From: Arenicella sp.
GTDB lineage: Bacteria > Pseudomonadota > Gammaproteobacteria > Arenicellales > Arenicellaceae
Assembly: GCA_023301745.1 (NCBI GenBank)
Contig: JALZVW010000057.1
Span: forward strand, 1-41,961
Direction of reading: 5' to 3'
DNA: 41,961 nucleotides
The notes beneath the pieces were generated by a model. It ran no database searches, was not told the DNA's origin, and saw only the letters and a list, made by a program, of their open reading frames with translations. Numbering within the stretch: position 1 is the stretch's first letter; each line of letters opens with the position of its first letter. Positions 12,267-41,945 of this stretch are shown piece by piece. Position numbers and translations under genes: made by a program.

Positions 12267-14183
12267 CTAGCCTAAAATTGGCTTGTCATCACTGTCAGCC
12301 GCCGGGCCGACCACTCGGCGTTTATGCCTTACTTTGACCTTTTTATTACTGCCCGAGGACGTCACGCCAAACTCGTCGGCGGGGCGAGCTTCTTGAAAGC
12401 GTGGTTCCGAGTTTGTTCGCCCTCTCGAGTTTTGACGGTTAGTGCTTGGGCCGTTGCGACGTTGACCACCATTATTGGTGCGTTTTTTACTAGAACGCTT
12501 CTTTCCAGCCTTTGAACGGCGTGGGCTATTAGTTTGTTCGCCATTACCAGCGTTGGAGTTACCCACATTCGCGTTACCTGCATTGACATTACCGCCGTTG
12601 CCGTTATTCGCTTGATTCTGGTTGTTCGGCCTGCGGCCTCTTTGGCCACCTGTCTTCTTCTGGCCAGTGTTATTAGCTCTGCCGTTTGAATTACTTTGCT
12701 GGCCCCGTTGAGCGCCGCCTTGGGTTTGCTTTTTACGCCCGCCATTGTTCTGACTACGGTTTTGTTTTTGCTGATTATTGTTGCGTCCGTTGCCATTACC
12801 TAAACCACCGTCATAGCCGTCGCCAAATACTGTATTGCCGTAGTTATCAGCATAGTCTACAGAGTTAAAGTTGACATCATTGGTGTCTTCATCATTCGGG
12901 CTTTGGCGAGGTTGCCGGTCTTTTTTATAGGTCTTATTTAACTCAGAAATCATGGCCTCACGGTCGTTCGGCTCAACTTCTTGAATTTCGGTCCACCATT
13001 CACTTATTTCTTCATCGACTTCATGCACCATGGTGCGCAGCAATAGGAAATCGTACGCCGCTCGAAATCGACGGTTATTCAAACACGCCTTTACCATACG
13101 CGGATTGCGTTTAATAAGACGAAAGTGGATATTCCAGATATCCAAAATAATTTCAGCCAGACGACGCGGCACCGCCACGTATTGATTTTGATCGCGCAGC
13201 CCATCATTCATTGCAACGCGCCATGCATGCGACTCATTAGCGCCGTCGTCCATCAAGACTTGGGCATCGGCTTTAACAGGGTCCCACATCATGCAGGCGA
13301 ACAAAAACGCGGGTATAACCGGCTTACCCTGCTTGATACGCTTGTCAGTATTCTGCAATGCACGCTCTGGAAGACCTTCAACACCGTCGATCGCGACTTG
13401 ATCGGTAAATGGAAATAGGTATTTAAATAGACCATATTTGCGCAATAGCAAATACGTTTCGTAAGCCGCCCCGCCATGAAAAAGTTTAAGCACTTCTTCA
13501 AAAAGGCGCGCATTGGACACATGAGAAAGCAGTGCACCTTGCTCTTCTATCATTTTCAGCGCTTCGGATTCCATTTCAAACCCGAGCTTACCGGCAAAGC
13601 GAATCACTCGAAGCATTCGAACAGGGTCTTCCGTAAAGCGCTGTTCTGGCGCGCCGATGCTTTTCAGCTTGCCCGCTTTAACGTCGTCTATACCGTTCAT
13701 GAAATCAAGTATCTCGCCATTAACACTGTCGTAATACATGGCATTAACAGTGAAATCTCGACGCACTACATCTTCTTCGATGCTTCCGTAGACGTTATCT
13801 CGTAATAGCTGACCTTGGTCGCCTTCACTCATTTCATTTTGACCGACACGCTCGCGATCATTAGCATCGGCTCTAAACGTCGCAACTTCGATTACTTCAT
13901 AACCAAAACGAACATGAACTAACTTAAATCGACGGCCTATAATGCGTGCGTTGCGGCCGAACGTTTTCTTTATTTGCTCCGGTGTGGCATTGGTCGAGAC
14001 ATCGAAGTCTTTGGGTTTAGTGCCGATAATTAAATCGCGGACGCAACCACCGACCAGGTAGGCTTGGTAACCCGCCTCTTGTAAGCCTTCTACGACCTTT
14101 AAGGCCTTCGGACTGATATTGTCATTACTGATTCCCGCGTCTGAGGCGGAGATAATATTGGCTTGAATGTTTTTTTGGGTCAC
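12267..14183 (-). CDS. pcnB: Poly(A) polymerase I with a long N/G/R-rich tail
   Basis: PcnB adds poly(A) tails to RNA 3' ends and so promotes their decay by the degradosome. The nucleotidyltransferase core has YLVGGCVRDLIIG, the catalytic pair in KDFDVST (Asp59 and Asp61), RRDFTVNAMYYD and RMLRVIRFAGKLGF. These are the marks of bacterial poly(A) polymerases and CCA enzymes, and the context and length favour PcnB. At 638 residues it exceeds the usual 450-500. Residues from about 417 to the end are a low-complexity tail, first acidic (DEDTNDVNF), then Asn/Gly/Gln/Arg-rich, ending in a basic KKVKVRHKRRVV cluster. The tail composition closely resembles that of RNase E in this window. Confidence 0.95.
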   Translation of the reverse strand: MTQKNIQANIISASDAGISNDNISPKALKVVEGLQEAGYQAYLVGGCVRDLIIGTKPKDFDVSTNATPEQIKKTFGRNARIIGRRFKLVHVRFGYEVIEVATFRADANDRERVGQNEMSEGDQGQLLRDNVYGSIEEDVVRRDFTVNAMYYDSVNGEILDFMNGIDDVKAGKLKSIGAPEQRFTEDPVRMLRVIRFAGKLGFEMESEALKMIEEQGALLSHVSNARLFEEVLKLFHGGAAYETYLLLRKYGLFKYLFPFTDQVAIDGVEGLPERALQNTDKRIKQGKPVIPAFLFACMMWDPVKADAQVLMDDGANESHAWRVAMNDGLRDQNQYVAVPRRLAEIILDIWNIHFRLIKRNPRMVKACLNNRRFRAAYDFLLLRTMVHEVDEEISEWWTEIQEVEPNDREAMISELNKTYKKDRQPRQSPNDEDTNDVNFNSVDYADNYGNTVFGDGYDGGLGNGNGRNNNQQKQNRSQNNGGRKKQTQGGAQRGQQSNSNGRANNTGQKKTGGQRGRRPNNQNQANNGNGGNVNAGNANVGNSNAGNGEQTNSPRRSKAGKKRSSKKRTNNGGQRRNGPSTNRQNSRGRTNSEPRFQEARPADEFGVTSSGSNKKVKVRHKRRVVGPAADSDDKPILG

Positions 14184-22699: not shown

Positions 22700-24877
22700 A
22701 TGAAAAGAATGTTATTTAACGCCACGCACTCTGAAGAGTTACGCGTTGCTATTGTAGATGGTCAAAAATTAGTCGATTTAGACATTGAATCAGCCAGCAC
22801 AGCCTTAAAGAAAGGCAATATTTACAAAGGCAAGATCACTCGTGTCGAACCAAGCTTAGAAGCCGCGTTTGTCGAATACGGTGGTAATCGCCAAGGCTTT
22901 CTGCCGATGAAAGAAGTGTCACGCACTTACTTTCAAAATTACAAATCAGAAACCCCTATTTCACAAGTCAAGATCGCCGACGTTCTTAAAGCCGGGCAAG
23001 AATTATTGGTCCAAGTTGAGAAAGACGAGCGTGGAAATAAAGGCGCCGCCCTCACAACCTTCGTGAGCCTTGCAGGCCGTTACTTGGTATTTATGCCAAA
23101 CAACCCTAAAGGCGGTGGTATTTCACGTCGCATTGAAGGCCAAGAACGTCAAGAGCTTCGTGACGCAATGGCGGAGCTTGAAATTCCTCGAGAGCATGCC
23201 TTGATCGCACGTACCGCCGGCATTGGTAAAACGGCAGAAGAACTGCAGTGGGATTTAGACTACCTACAACGTTTATCGACTGCGATTCATGACGCTTCTG
23301 AAGCACAAGCCGCACCGTTCTTGGTCTACCAAGAAACTAACTTGGTTGTTCGCTCAATTCGCGATTACTTTCGTAGCGATATAGCTGAGATCATTATTGA
23401 TGATAAAGAAATATTTGAGCGTGCGACTCGTTTCATGAATCAAGTTATGCCGCACAATGTCATCAAGCTGAAAATGTATGAGGACACAGTTCCGCTATTC
23501 TCTCGCTATCAAGTAGAGCATCAAATTGAATCGGCTTATGCACGCGAAGTACGTCTAAATGCCGGTGGCGCACTGGTTATCGACCCAACCGAAGCATTGA
23601 CATCAATCGACGTGAACTCGGCGCGCGCAACAAAAGGCAGCGACATCGAAGAAACCGCCTTGCAAACCAATATGGAAGCGGCGGAAGAGATTGCTCGTCA
23701 ATTACGTATTCGAGATTTGGGTGGCTTAGTCGTTATCGACTTTATCGACATGCTTGCAAATAAAAACCAACGCGCGGTCGAACAGTGCTTACAAAAAGCA
23801 CTCAAAGCAGACCGTGCACGAGTACAAGTTGGCCGTATCTCGCGTTTTGGCTTACTAGAAATGTCTCGTCAGCGTTTACGCTCATCGATTAGCGATTCTA
23901 ATTATCATGTATGCCCACGCTGTGAAGGCAATGGCCATATTCGAAGTGTCGGCTCGTCGGCGTTAAGTGTATTACGCATCATCGAAGAAGAAGCTTTAAA
24001 AGAAAATACAGAAGCGATCAATGCGCACCTGCCGATTAAAACAGCGACTTATTTACTGAATGAAAAACGTCACGAAGTGAGTTTATTAGAAAACCGTTTA
24101 GGCACTAACATTACCATCGTACCGACGATTGAGTTGGAAACACCGCACTTTAAAATTCAACGTTTGCGCAGTGAAGATTTGGATGAAATGCCCAATCTCC
24201 CAAGCTATAAAACCGAGATTCAAGAGCCTAAAGAAGATCCTCGTAAGGCCAAGTATCAGAAGAAAAACCAAGCCAGCAATGTTGTCATCGCTCCTAATAC
24301 TGAGCCAGCAGTCGGTATTGAATCAGTGCAGATGGGGAACAAGCCTATTCCAGCACCCAAGCCAGAACCGGTAGCACCAATCAAGGCAGGTATTTTCGTA
24401 AGAATTTGGCGTGCCTTGTTTGGCACTGGTGAGGAAGAACAAAAACCGGTTAACGACAATAAAAAAGGCGGTCAAAAGCCGAATAATAATCGAGCTCGCA
24501 GCAATAACCCACGTGCGGGTAACCGCAATAACAATCGTGGTCGCAACAATAACAACCAACGTGGTGGCAATCGCAATAACAAGCCCAATAGTGCTAATAA
24601 AGATAGCCAACCTAGCGACAGCAGTAATAATCCTCAGAATAACCGAGGTGAGAAGAAAAGCGAAGGTGCTAGTAATGAAGGCGGCAGCAATAACAACCGC
24701 AATCGTAACCGCAATCGTAATCGCAACCGTAATCGCAACCGTTCAAACAACAAGCCTCAAGGTGAGAACGCTAGCGCTGATAGTAAAGGGCCGGAACAAA
24801 AGCAAGGCAACGCTAGCAATGCTCCTAGCGATAAGCCACAAAATGCAAAACCTGTCGAAGCCAATAAATCGGAATAG
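22700..24877 (+). CDS. rne: Ribonuclease E
   Basis: RNase E initiates mRNA decay and processes rRNA and tRNA. It opens with KRMLFNATHSEELRVAIVDG. The S1 RNA-binding domain is at about 36-120 (KGKITRVEPSLEAAFVEYGG). The catalytic magnesium ligands are Asp304 and Asp347 in SIDVNSARAT and VVIDFIDM, and the Zn-link cysteines Cys405 and Cys408 in CPRCEG; these positions fall one residue from E. coli. Residues 564-575 (GIFVRIWRALFG) form an amphipathic helix equal in place to the E. coli membrane-targeting segment. Beyond it the scaffold is only about 150 residues of Asn/Arg-rich low complexity, giving 725 residues against 1061 in E. coli. RNase G is excluded by this tail and by the divergent rluC. 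Confidence 0.97.
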   Translation: MKRMLFNATHSEELRVAIVDGQKLVDLDIESASTALKKGNIYKGKITRVEPSLEAAFVEYGGNRQGFLPMKEVSRTYFQNYKSETPISQVKIADVLKAGQELLVQVEKDERGNKGAALTTFVSLAGRYLVFMPNNPKGGGISRRIEGQERQELRDAMAELEIPREHALIARTAGIGKTAEELQWDLDYLQRLSTAIHDASEAQAAPFLVYQETNLVVRSIRDYFRSDIAEIIIDDKEIFERATRFMNQVMPHNVIKLKMYEDTVPLFSRYQVEHQIESAYAREVRLNAGGALVIDPTEALTSIDVNSARATKGSDIEETALQTNMEAAEEIARQLRIRDLGGLVVIDFIDMLANKNQRAVEQCLQKALKADRARVQVGRISRFGLLEMSRQRLRSSISDSNYHVCPRCEGNGHIRSVGSSALSVLRIIEEEALKENTEAINAHLPIKTATYLLNEKRHEVSLLENRLGTNITIVPTIELETPHFKIQRLRSEDLDEMPNLPSYKTEIQEPKEDPRKAKYQKKNQASNVVIAPNTEPAVGIESVQMGNKPIPAPKPEPVAPIKAGIFVRIWRALFGTGEEEQKPVNDNKKGGQKPNNNRARSNNPRAGNRNNNRGRNNNNQRGGNRNNKPNSANKDSQPSDSSNNPQNNRGEKKSEGASNEGGSNNNRNRNRNRNRNRNRNRSNNKPQGENASADSKGPEQKQGNASNAPSDKPQNAKPVEANKSE
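24695..24742 (+). repeat. In-frame hexanucleotide repeat coding (Asn-Arg)8 in RNase E
   Basis: Eight consecutive 6-base units of the form AAYCGY encode alternating Asn-Arg at residues 666-681 of RNase E. Third-base variation between copies (AACCGC, AATCGT, AATCGC, AACCGT) shows the array is not entirely recent. Slippage by whole units would keep the frame, so the tail length may vary between strains. Confidence 0.9.
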
Positions 24878-37224: not shown

Positions 37225-37376
37225 AATCTCACTTTGTAGATCCACACATATTAGTCAAAATGGCTAATTTGTGGCATTAAACTGGTTACTCACATTATTT
37301 AGTGTCGAGTAGAGGTTAATTGTGCAAGATTACAAGGTGAAGACGTACTAGTGATTAACTTTAAGGGTAAGCGCCG

Positions 37377-40300
37377 TTGAATACCAAAAAGCAAGTAAGT
37401 TTATTTAAAGACATTGAACGCCGAGCAAAGAATCTATCTCTGAACGGCAACAAGCATCCGTTTAAATGGCATCAAGACGTGTCAGGCCTACTCAGCCCTC
37501 AAGAAGTCGAGAGCACTCGACAATCATTGAAGAAGCTAGCCGTAGACGACTATGTTGCAAAAGTATTAGACCCTGCCGAGTCGACCAGTAGGCCCAGCGC
37601 TCGAGAGGCCGTTAGCAAACTACGCGGCAAGATACATAGCGAATTTGAACTTGGCCCACTGTATTCGGTCGAAATCTCGTTAGAACACGGCGACGGCGCT
37701 CGCCGCATGGCATTCATTGCTCAAGACCGCAGTATCGCCAATGGCGTTTGGAAACCAGAACATCACCTAGAGGCCTGCCGTTTAGTCGACGAGTACGCTA
37801 GCCGGGCAATTCCAATTGTTACCTTTATGGACACGCCGGGTGCCGACGCTGGCACCGAAGCAAACGAAGCCAACCAAGCACACTCGATTTCTCGATTGAT
37901 TGCCGTAATGGCCGCAGCCAAAGTGCCGAGCATTGGTGTCATTTATGGTCTTGGTTATTCTGGTGGCGCTATTCCACTGGCAACGACAAATCTTTTATTG
38001 GCCGTTCGGTGTGGCGCGTTCAATACGATTCAACCGAAAGGTTTAGCCAACATTGCTCGCCAATACAACCTATCGTGGCAAGAAAGCGCTCGTTATGTCG
38101 GTGTTTCTCCATCAGAGCTGTATCGCAGTGGCGCGATCGACGGAGTTATCGATTGGGACCCAAGCGATAGCAAAGAGGCGATCACCGAGAATGAAAGTTT
38201 GACCGCAGCGATATTCACCGGCATTCATCAGATAGAAGCCGATGCTAAACGTGAAGTACTAGAAAACCCCAAAGTCGCTGCCGATTATGTGAATAACGTA
38301 CGCTCAGAAAAATTGCATAAGCGCTCTTTCGACGCATTGCAAAAGGCCGCCAATTTTGAGCTTTATAAAGAATTAAGTGAATACCCTAGTGTCTATTCGC
38401 ACGCGATGATGTACTTGCGCTCTCTGTCGATGCGTTGCCGTATTCATTCAACAACGATTGAAGCCTATGGCCGGTTAGCTGAAGAAGAAATCCCGAAAGG
38501 CGACTTAAGCACTCGCACCCAACAATTAAGAGAAGTCGCATTTCAACGATGGTTGTCTGACCCTGAAAAACTGGTCTATAACGAACAACTGGCGAAAACA
38601 TGGGCCACGGTAAAACAACGCCATGATGAATTAGACACCGACCGAAATAAGCTCACTGCGTTTATCTTAGGCGACCCTCAGAGCAACTACACTAGTGCAC
38701 AAAAGAGTTTTTGCTTTGTCTTGTGTCTGTATTTGTACAATCGCTGGAAGTCAGATGCGGCCTTTAATTTTGTCGAAATGAGTCGACGCATAGCCGCCCT
38801 TCCAGAAGCCGAAGAAGGCAGCGAAAGCGCACTCGACAAAGACGAAGCTGATTTAACTTTATTAGACACACTGTTTGAACCTGCAATTCGCGAAGTCCTA
38901 CAAGACCAGTTTCGGAACATTTTGGTGTTTGATGCCTTGTATAACAACATTGTTAGCAACTTTGGCGAAATCGCTGAAGAATCAAAGGCATTTCAATCTA
39001 TCTCTGAGAAAACTCTGAGAGGCATCTTAGATACGTCTCTAGAAAAAGTAACCTCTAGCATTAGCGCCACTATATCTGAAGATGAAGGCGCCATTGATAG
39101 TGATACTAAAGCCGAATTTGCTAAATGGTTATCGCACTTTGTTAAATATGATCAACGCGGTGACTTCTTAGCCGATGTTGAAGAGTGGCAACGGGTTAAC
39201 TTTCCTCGTATGTCAGACTCACTGCTAGTGCTAATCACTTACTTCTTTGAAACCTTGGTTCCGCGCTTCATCGACTCACAAATGACTGGCAAAGCGTACA
39301 ACGGCCAGATCAACCCTGGGCGTATCGGTAAACGTAAAGATTTCTGGAATCAACTCAACATTGCCTATCAAGATCTAATGATACAGCGTGTGTTGACCTC
39401 TTATAAACGACAAAAATTAAGTACCGTTGATGCCTTCAAATCAACCTTGTTTACTGAGTTTGAAGAAACCAATGCAAACCGCATGACCGCTAACCCTGTA
39501 TCGTTTCCGGGTTTTCGTCAATCAATTGAAAAATCATTGAACAATGACATAACGCCTTGCGGTGTTGTCACCGGCACAGGCCAACTAATGTTGGACGACA
39601 GTGGCGAAACAGCCAAAGTTGGCGCCTTAATTTCAAATGTCGCCTTTCAAGCAGGCGCGTTCGATATGGCCGGTGCTGAAAAACTCTGTGCGCTGCTGAT
39701 TGATTGTGCTGACCAAGGTTTACCCGTGGTATGTTTTGTATCCTCGGGTGGCATGCAAACCAAAGAAGGCCCGAGTTCATTGTTTTCAATGGCCATCGTT
39801 AACGACCGCATTACGGCGTTCATCTCCGAAACAGGCTTACCCGTTGTAATTTTCGGTTTTGGCGATTGCACTGGTGGCTCACAAGCGAGTTTTGTAACAC
39901 ACCCATTAGTTCACACTTACTACTTTAGTGGCACCGATATGCCATTTGCTGGCCGTGTTGTTGTGCCGTCGTTCTTGCCATCAATGGCAACAACCTCGAA
40001 CTACTTGGCAAACAACCCAGGCGCAATGCAAGGCTTAGTTAAGCATCCATTTGCAGAGGGCTTGGACGACAAACTGGTTGCCGTTGATTCAAACATCACG
40101 CTGCCCACACAAACCATTGGCGACGTCGTAGGCAAGGTTATTTCAGGCGCGGTTGGTGTTGATAACAAAGAAAAAAACGCTGAAGTTTTCCGCGCAGTTG
40201 ACCAAATGGGTAAGATCGAGACCGTCTTGATTCACGCTCGTGGTTGTACCGCGATTAAATTGATTCGTGTCGCCCAAGAGCAAGGCCACAAAGTGCTGTT

Positions 40301-41945
40301 GGTGCAATCCGACCCAGATATGGATTCAGCCGCCTGCGATATGCTGACCGAGCAAGACGAAGTGGTTTGCCTTGGTGGCCAAACGCCAGGCGAGAGTTAC
40401 CTGAACGCTCTATCAGTGGTTACCATTGCTAGAAACCGTGGCGCTGACGCGCTCCACCCGGGTATCGGCTTCTTGTCAGAAAATGCTGGCTTCGCACGGC
40501 TCTGTCGTGCCAACGGCTTGAATTTTATTGGCCCGAAAGCAAGCAGCATGGACACCATGGGCAACAAATCGAATGCCATTAATACGGCCATGGCCAACAA
40601 TGTGCCAGTCGTTCCAGGCTCGCACGGCATTCTTACCAGCGCAGAAGCAACCGCTAAAGTAGCCGATGAAATTGGCTACCCTGTATTGCTTAAAGCCGTG
40701 CATGGCGGCGGCGGCAAAGGCATTAAAATTGTGCGCAGCGCCTCTGAAGTTAAAGATGCGTTTAACACGGTTTACGCCGAGGCTCGCTCGGCGTTTGGCA
40801 ATGGCGACCTATACTTAGAAAAATTTGTGGTATCGATGCGTCATATCGAAGTACAGATTTTACGTGACACCCACGGCGTCACCAAAGTACTTGGGCTTCG
40901 CGATTGCACGGTACAGCGAAACAACCAGAAAGTGCTTGAAGAATCAGGCTCGACCATGTTGCCTAAGCGCTTAGAGAATATGGCCTATGAATGTGCCGAA
41001 AATTTAGCCAACGCCGTAGATTACTTCGGCGCGGGTACGGTTGAATTCATTTACGACCTGCATGCCGACACCATCTACTTTATGGAGATGAATACGCGCC
41101 TACAAGTAGAGCACCCTGTCACCGAATGGACATCGGGCGTTAGAATTGTGGGCACTCAGTTTGAAATCGCCGAAGGCGCGACTATAAAAGATATGAAGAT
41201 CGGCAACAGCGGCTTCTCTATCGAAGCTCGTATTACCGCCGAGAAGGCTCGCTTAGACACTGACGGGGCGATCGATTTCTTACCAACGCCAGGTTTAGTA
41301 ACCGAATGTAAGTTCCCTGAAGGCAAGCATATTGAGGTAATTGCATCGGTCTCTGAAGGCAAAACGATCTCGCCGTTCTATGACAGCATGATTGCCCAGC
41401 TAGTGGTTCACGGTAAGCACCGTAAAGACGCGATCAAGAAGTTACTTGCCGCGCTTGAAGAAACCTCTATCAAAGGCGTGTGCACCAACATCTCATTATT
41501 AAAACGCATCTTAACCGACACCACCTTTGTTAAAGGCGACTACGATACCGGCTACTTACCGGCATTCTTAGACACCCTAGATAAGGACCAAATCGTTGAA
41601 GAGATGGCGTATACCGGGGTCGCCGATACCGGAGCTGACTTAAGTAATTTACAAATAGCTGGCACCGATGAAATCAAAGTTATTTCGCCGATGACCGGAA
41701 TTTATTATTCTACGCCATCTCCTAACGAGCCAGATTTCGTCAAAGTGGGCGATAAAATCAACTTAAGCAATACACTTTGCCAAGTCGAAGCGATGAAGTT
41801 ATTTACGCATATTTCGCTGTCTAGCGTACCGGGCTCCGGCGTAGCATTTACCGCTGAGAACGAATACGAAGTTGTGCGTGTAAACCAAGCCAACAATGCT
41901 CAGGTTAATTCGGGTGATTTGTTGTTTGTGGTGAAGCCAGTTTAA
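37377..41945 (+). CDS. Single-chain biotin-dependent acyl-CoA carboxylase with AccA-D-C-B-like module order
   Basis: The 1522-residue protein probably carboxylates an acyl-CoA. Its first module (about residues 20-300) is AccA-like, with FMDTPGADAG at 150-159 and GLGYSGGA at 191-198. Residues 300-700 are helical and unassigned. Residues 700-930 are AccD-like, with CFVSSGGMQ at 786-794 and GFGDCTGG at 827-834. No Cys4 zinc ribbon is seen. The biotin carboxylase runs from 946 to about 1400, with the ATP-grasp loop HGGGGKG at 1109-1115 and MEMNTRLQVEHP from 1236. The biotinyl domain ends the chain, with biotin Lys1474 in EAMKL. The start is TTG at 37377, with AAGGG nine bases upstream; no earlier in-frame alternative is convincing. 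Substrate unknown: acetyl-CoA, propionyl-CoA or longer acyl-CoA. Confidence 0.88.
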   Translation: MNTKKQVSLFKDIERRAKNLSLNGNKHPFKWHQDVSGLLSPQEVESTRQSLKKLAVDDYVAKVLDPAESTSRPSAREAVSKLRGKIHSEFELGPLYSVEISLEHGDGARRMAFIAQDRSIANGVWKPEHHLEACRLVDEYASRAIPIVTFMDTPGADAGTEANEANQAHSISRLIAVMAAAKVPSIGVIYGLGYSGGAIPLATTNLLLAVRCGAFNTIQPKGLANIARQYNLSWQESARYVGVSPSELYRSGAIDGVIDWDPSDSKEAITENESLTAAIFTGIHQIEADAKREVLENPKVAADYVNNVRSEKLHKRSFDALQKAANFELYKELSEYPSVYSHAMMYLRSLSMRCRIHSTTIEAYGRLAEEEIPKGDLSTRTQQLREVAFQRWLSDPEKLVYNEQLAKTWATVKQRHDELDTDRNKLTAFILGDPQSNYTSAQKSFCFVLCLYLYNRWKSDAAFNFVEMSRRIAALPEAEEGSESALDKDEADLTLLDTLFEPAIREVLQDQFRNILVFDALYNNIVSNFGEIAEESKAFQSISEKTLRGILDTSLEKVTSSISATISEDEGAIDSDTKAEFAKWLSHFVKYDQRGDFLADVEEWQRVNFPRMSDSLLVLITYFFETLVPRFIDSQMTGKAYNGQINPGRIGKRKDFWNQLNIAYQDLMIQRVLTSYKRQKLSTVDAFKSTLFTEFEETNANRMTANPVSFPGFRQSIEKSLNNDITPCGVVTGTGQLMLDDSGETAKVGALISNVAFQAGAFDMAGAEKLCALLIDCADQGLPVVCFVSSGGMQTKEGPSSLFSMAIVNDRITAFISETGLPVVIFGFGDCTGGSQASFVTHPLVHTYYFSGTDMPFAGRVVVPSFLPSMATTSNYLANNPGAMQGLVKHPFAEGLDDKLVAVDSNITLPTQTIGDVVGKVISGAVGVDNKEKNAEVFRAVDQMGKIETVLIHARGCTAIKLIRVAQEQGHKVLLVQSDPDMDSAACDMLTEQDEVVCLGGQTPGESYLNALSVVTIARNRGADALHPGIGFLSENAGFARLCRANGLNFIGPKASSMDTMGNKSNAINTAMANNVPVVPGSHGILTSAEATAKVADEIGYPVLLKAVHGGGGKGIKIVRSASEVKDAFNTVYAEARSAFGNGDLYLEKFVVSMRHIEVQILRDTHGVTKVLGLRDCTVQRNNQKVLEESGSTMLPKRLENMAYECAENLANAVDYFGAGTVEFIYDLHADTIYFMEMNTRLQVEHPVTEWTSGVRIVGTQFEIAEGATIKDMKIGNSGFSIEARITAEKARLDTDGAIDFLPTPGLVTECKFPEGKHIEVIASVSEGKTISPFYDSMIAQLVVHGKHRKDAIKKLLAALEETSIKGVCTNISLLKRILTDTTFVKGDYDTGYLPAFLDTLDKDQIVEEMAYTGVADTGADLSNLQIAGTDEIKVISPMTGIYYSTPSPNEPDFVKVGDKINLSNTLCQVEAMKLFTHISLSSVPGSGVAFTAENEYEVVRVNQANNAQVNSGDLLFVVKPV

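Follow-up and report, generated by a model that had tools for sequence, protein, structure and literature searches.

In long-chain acyl-CoA carboxylases (LCC), the biotin carboxylase (BC) comes first and the AccD-like half of the carboxyltransferase (CT) precedes the AccA-like half. Fused CT subunits likewise place the AccD-like half before the AccA-like half, and eukaryotic acetyl-CoA carboxylase (ACC) is ordered BC-BCCP-central-CT. An extract of PMC4833862 describes the eukaryotic single-chain ACC with a noncatalytic central region. The multidomain ACC of Saccharopolyspora erythraea is presented, in an extract of PMC6491548, as the first in prokaryotes. The closest described system is AccS of Shewanella oneidensis (SO_0840), a protein of 1517 aa named acetyl-CoA carboxylase multifunctional enzyme in the available portion of PMC4793157 (2016), where a separate AccB (SO_0511) is also given for this species. 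Extracts of a regulation study (PMC11602165, 2024) call AccS a multiple-domain ACCase with a domain order unlike the eukaryotic one and show it as a biotinylated band near 170 kDa. In the same extracts, the activator gene accR is divergent from accS, and an accR mutant with reduced AccS expression grows again when supplied with accA, accD, and accBC of E. coli. AccADCB is named in a pathway list in an extract of PMC9803151, and PMC10470608 mentions SO0840. PDB entries 9KKM and 9W4A carry the name Acetyl-CoA carboxylase multifunctional enzyme AccADCB, and the title of 9KKM specifies a cryo-EM holoenzyme dimer from S. oneidensis with mutant E1238A. We found no paper on either structure in the literature searched, although one may exist elsewhere.

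The window, which is the whole 41,961-nucleotide stretch of Arenicella sp. DNA analyzed here, encodes a 1522-aa relative of this protein. Its features are as follows.

37363..37367, + strand: putative ribosome-binding site AAGGG, 9 bases 5' of the TTG start, as read from the sequence
37377..41945, + strand: accADCB (accS-like) coding sequence of 1522 aa, from a TTG start through the stop codon, without internal stop; whole-length match to PDB 9KKM AccADCB
37626..38255, + strand: AccA-like CT alpha module, about residues 84 to 293, with GYSGGA at 193 to 198 and Pfam ACCA at 123 to 293
38256..39455, + strand: helical middle domain between the CT halves, about residues 294 to 693, from structure prediction and a match to 9KKM residues 238 to 675
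39456..40211, + strand: AccD-like CT beta module, about residues 694 to 945, with SSGGM and TGG motifs and without zinc ribbon
40212..41576, + strand: BC (AccC-like) module, about residues 946 to 1400, from Pfam and NF006367
41664..41942, + strand: biotinyl carrier (AccB-like) domain, about residues 1430 to 1522, with Biotin_lipoyl at 1435 to 1480
41796..41798, + strand: predicted biotin-attachment lysine K1474 in EAMKL, aligned to EAMKM of E. coli AccB

Each of the canonical E. coli subunits AccA, AccB, AccC, and AccD was matched by its module in the window protein. Pfam ACCA was found over its cut-off (87.7 bits), as were Biotin_carb_N (residues 947 to 1058), CPSase_L_D2 (1064 to 1271), Biotin_carb_C (1283 to 1394), and Biotin_lipoyl. 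PF01039, the fused CT model, aligned to residues 109 to 239 through its C-terminal part only (positions 294 to 428 of 493), which implies that the first module is the alpha, or AccA-like, half. The AccD part had no Pfam match and was matched weakly by NCBIfam accD (TIGR00515; residues 694 to 863, 36.3 bits, with the cut-off at 317). A 23-sequence profile of this module returned E. coli AccD at 6.1e-8 and E. coli AccA at 0.27, with 200 shuffled controls at 1.9 or above. NF006367 scored 485 bits on the BC module, under its cut-off of 597, and the NCBIfam accC, accA, and BCCP models were all under cut-off on the window protein. Over 45 residues, the biotinyl domain shared 53% identity with E. coli AccB. 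The order on this chain of about 1500 aa is thus AccA, helical domain, AccD, BC, and BCCP, the order of AccADCB, and the preliminary description had read the single frame the same way, with a middle of about 400 residues and EAMKL in the biotinyl domain.

Compared with LCC, fused CT subunits, and eukaryotic ACC, this order is permuted, as had been proposed, with the C-terminal part of PF01039 lying at residues 109 to 239. Eukaryotic ACC is a single chain as well, and LCC (PDB 4RCN, 5FIF) shares with the window protein the presence of BC, BCCP, and CT on one chain. However, the window protein reverses the LCC order, with the CT alpha match first, the accD match at 694 to 863, and BC at 947 to 1394. 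An order unlike that of eukaryotic ACC and LCC could point to a categorically new carboxylase architecture, as could the finding that no single Pfam or NCBIfam model spans the chain, with 25 of 42 NCBIfam matches listed. Yet in S. oneidensis the same build already has a name, publications, and a solved structure (9KKM; extracts of PMC4793157 and PMC11602165), which leaves that reading a vanishingly small chance.

A phmmer search of PDB sequences aligned residues 8 to 1522 of the window protein with 9KKM/9W4A AccADCB (1517 aa) at 1612.7 bits; the next PDB entry reached 350 bits and covered BC only. Residue 1238 of the 9KKM chain is A, and it aligns with E1245 of the window protein and E296 of E. 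coli AccC. The two proteins are colinear over 8 to 1522 and agree in domain order, length, helical middle, and conserved catalytic residues. Differences from Shewanella were also evident. The S. abyssi homologue (1517 aa, 3023 bits to 9KKM) was 49.1% identical to the window protein. A divergent LysR gene adjoins accS in Shewanella (L040, 6913-7824; AccR in the extracts of PMC11602165), whereas the nearest two upstream genes in the window are VanZ-like (+ strand; Pfam below cut-off) and recJ (− strand), and downstream lies the contig end. S. oneidensis keeps a separate AccB (extract of PMC4793157), but none was found over cut-off in eight members of the window's genus. The TTG start was a further difference from Shewanella AccS: taking the first start following a stop, the 13 members of the genus whose frame is complete, counting the window, use TTG (10), GTG (2), or ATG (1). 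Taken together, the architecture is already named, published since at least 2016, and solved, and the window protein is a divergent new member of it. The suggestion of a rarely described ACC architecture was correct, and the order proved to be that of a known family, AccS/AccADCB of S. oneidensis.

We then considered the reading frame itself, which is preceded by an in-frame TAA at 37368-37370, upstream of the TTG start. Little speaks for an assembly artefact or a frameshift fusing separate genes: the gene is two adjacent frames at one locus (L047), and shorter open frames of 753 to 1467 aa occur in five more genomes of the window's family. On the other hand, frames of 1515 to 1658 aa are kept at no fewer than 22 other loci (15 from 15 genomes, at least 3 from Shewanella, and at least 4 from MAGs), and the solved relative is single-chain. 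The full-length frames rule out frameshift or misassembly as the source of the fusion, for which we retain next to no probability, and the frame stands as first described. The named relatives came from the best 80 of 586 matches, from which the full-length entries L040 to L046 were used; the split L047, the partial L048, L049, L050, and L082, and eight frames of 986 to 1446 aa among L051 to L119 were left out. Their matched ranges and frame lengths suggest that most of the lower entries among the matches listed are single modules or adjoining separate genes.

Two loci differ in form. The L047 gene (7734-12318, on a Desulfuromonadales-labelled contig) consists of frames of 792 and 732 aa, the second starting just 5' of the AccD-module SSGGM motif, and this is either a natural split or a sequencing error. 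L028 (5688-10514) encodes a 1608-aa version with much of the added length in the middle domain; its genome (G006) is 1.7 Mb, and no further BC or AccA was found there.

Structure prediction extended the comparison with 9KKM. The models were of moderate confidence (pLDDT 73 and 75) and built on 23-sequence alignments. The AlphaFold2 model of residues 1 to 945 (pLDDT 73.4, pTM 0.66) superimposed on 9KKM with Z 42.5 and an rmsd of 2.9 over 862 aligned residues, compared with Z 19.8 to 20.3 for LCC CT. The AccA part of the model matched AccA of S. aureus (2f9i, Z 26.6) and of E. coli (2f9y, Z 26.5). Together with Pfam ACCA at 123 to 293, this upholds the earlier view that residues 1 to 300 are AccA-like.

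Modelled alone (residues 294 to 705, pLDDT 75.1), the middle was almost entirely helical and matched 9KKM residues 238 to 675 (Foldseek E 3.1e-18; VIA Z 26.8, rmsd 2.7, 280 aligned). This implies that the previously unassigned middle corresponds to a helical domain that the solved structure already contains. Known regulatory, BT, or central domains were rejected as its identity: 9KKM was the sole Foldseek match at E <= 0.001, and VIA fell to Z 4.3 in the following row, although the fold may well occur in other proteins. A piece of an ACC subunit was rejected as well, with E. coli AccA, AccB, AccC, and AccD all no better than shuffled controls.

Sequence and fold together show a single chain bearing CT-alpha, the helical domain, CT-beta, BC, and BCCP, with active-site residues conserved. 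Comparison with E. coli AccC covered 17 positions, 14 of which are identical in the window protein, including K116, K159, H209, E211, K238, E276, E288, N290, R292, Q294, E296, and R338; the three that differ are H236, L278, and I287. Those 12 residues from K116 to R338 are identical in all 23 family proteins, and so is the lysine at the K1474 position. GG 196-197 of CT-alpha is also kept in 23 of 23, and the CT Gly-Gly pairs of both halves in 22 or 23. We take these 12 AccC positions, the biotin lysine, and the CT glycines to be catalytic residues. Since they are kept, the window protein most likely functions as an acetyl-CoA carboxylase. CxxC occurs in none of the 23 proteins, and the alignment with E. 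coli AccD has a gap at that place; thus, the AccD zinc ribbon is absent from all sampled family members. Compared with canonical ACC, the protein differs in being one chain, in its divergent AccA and AccD modules, in its missing AccD zinc ribbon, and in its added helical domain. One family member (L045, 7902-12764) has EAFK at the biotin site in place of EAMK and SSSGM in CT beta in place of SSGGM.

The window protein is in all likelihood an acetyl-CoA carboxylase of the single-chain AccADCB (AccS) type, and its product would very probably be malonyl-CoA, the fatty acid building block. The BC module would carboxylate biotin on K1474 using ATP and bicarbonate, and the carrier would then swing over to the CT site. 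The alpha and beta modules, linked through the helical middle, would form that site, which would move the carboxyl group onto acetyl-CoA to give malonyl-CoA. The enzyme probably works as a homodimer, in keeping with the title of 9KKM. Making malonyl-CoA is an essential function, and ACC is a target for drugs and for engineering.

We asked which other ACC components are present in the window's genome (3.05 Mb in 191 contigs, 95% complete, so that a gene of the organism may have escaped this one assembly). PF02785 found a single BC, in AccADCB. PF03255, PF01039, and TIGR00515 found AccADCB and a 589-aa CT on contig C166. No AccA of canonical strength was found, and TIGR00515 gave no AccD match beyond AccADCB and the C166 CT, AccD having been searched for in this genome alone. 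Five proteins matched TIGR00531, namely, AccADCB, the C166 protein, and three others (597 aa on C149, 193 aa on C28, and 446 aa on C30). None was over cut-off, the 193-aa biotinyl frame scoring 30.1 bits, and hence no BCCP was found over a cut-off that is strict (passed by 7 of 14 control genomes).

These results bear on whether an enzyme built this way might favor another acyl-CoA, as the preliminary description had allowed, whether propionyl-CoA or a longer one. Its AccA and AccD modules lie well away from the canonical ones, the AccA modules of AccADCB scoring 88 to 100 bits versus 474 to 503 bits for canonical AccA. However, AccADCB was the only candidate ACC found in the genome, its AccA half is nearer to AccA (Z about 26) than to PCC or LCC CT (Z about 20), and E. 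coli acc genes restore the growth that Shewanella loses when AccS is scarce (extract of PMC11602165). Because the genome's only BC lies in AccADCB, canonical AccA was not found, and the E. coli genes rescue, another acyl-CoA substrate is less likely than acetyl-CoA, and we consider it very improbable.

The acetyl-CoA carboxylase reading was extended to related genomes. Homologues of matching architecture had been proposed for such a check, and canonical AccA (PF03255) was present in only 1 of 16 AccADCB-bearing genomes (G167); G372, G374, G376, G377, G380, G530, G583, G656, G696, and G728 were left out of this test. All six tested genomes without AccADCB had canonical AccA at 474 to 503 bits, including G383 of the same family. 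A separate BCCP over cut-off was found in 1 of 11 AccADCB-bearing genomes (again G167) and also in G383. Among six AccADCB-bearing genomes, G167 alone had a separate AccC-sized BC; a second BC of 681 to 716 aa, the size of MCC alpha, was present in G143, G256, and G352. G167 is more distant, and its locus (L027) is accompanied by canonical accA, accB, and an accC-sized BC, which implies that AccADCB and the canonical set can coexist.

Based on AccA tests of 12 members of the window's genus and two of g273, AccADCB appears to be the only ACC in the window's genus, where it probably takes the place of separate AccA, AccB, AccC, and AccD. We infer that the fused enzyme has replaced the canonical set in this genus and g273. 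A genus in which ACC seems to come only in the fused form, beside a genus of the same family with canonical AccA and AccB, makes a well-defined natural example for studying how and why one chain comes to replace an essential enzyme encoded by four genes.

To follow the architecture more widely, we used the middle domain as its marker, with counts that include the window's own genome. It was found in 6 of 369 genomes of a class sample (single-protein query) and 6 of 398 of a phylum sample (alignment query). The window's family had it in 19 of 21 genomes, and these were also the only 19 among 109 genomes of the order, all from two genera. The two family members without it were G375, which is 78% complete, and G383, with canonical AccA and AccB. 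Among the matches listed, named relatives included Shewanella abyssi and S. algicola, and MAG relatives carried the labels Pseudomonadales, Gammaproteobacteria, Verrucomicrobia, and Desulfuromonadales, which may be wrong. The window's genus, G385 (L038), and G167 (L027) grouped at 100/100, apart from Shewanella, in a midpoint-rooted tree with long branches for L028, L042, L045, L038, and L027, from which only this grouping was used. In G385, from another genus of the family, accADCB adjoins a gene for a BirA-like biotin ligase (HTH_11 and BPL; L038, 3520-9280), and a regulatory or functional link between the two is possible.

The CT on C166 is itself unusual. The protein (L039, 1823-3592, − strand) and its relatives at L140 (5894-7660), L141 (5418-7184), and L142 (5727-7496) are 588 to 589 aa long and have an N-terminal biotinyl domain with ESMK followed by a fused CT. 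The C166 copy matched residues 491 to 1069 of LCC 4RCN with 514 bits, and because the match is limited to this range, the C166 protein is without the BC half. Beside the C166-type gene, we found no neighboring ORF that was BC-like by size and N terminus in the four genomes. The BCs in these genomes are AccADCB alone in the window's genome and AccADCB plus one of 681 to 716 aa in G143, G256, and G352. It is conceivable, if rather doubtful, that AccADCB displaced the four-gene ACC and that its BC also serves the LCC-like C166 protein in trans, thereby charging two carboxylases.

Elsewhere in the window, a PcnB-like gene (12267-14183, − strand) and an RNase E/G-like gene (22700-24877, + strand), both named by eye, encode long Asn/Gly/Arg-rich tails.
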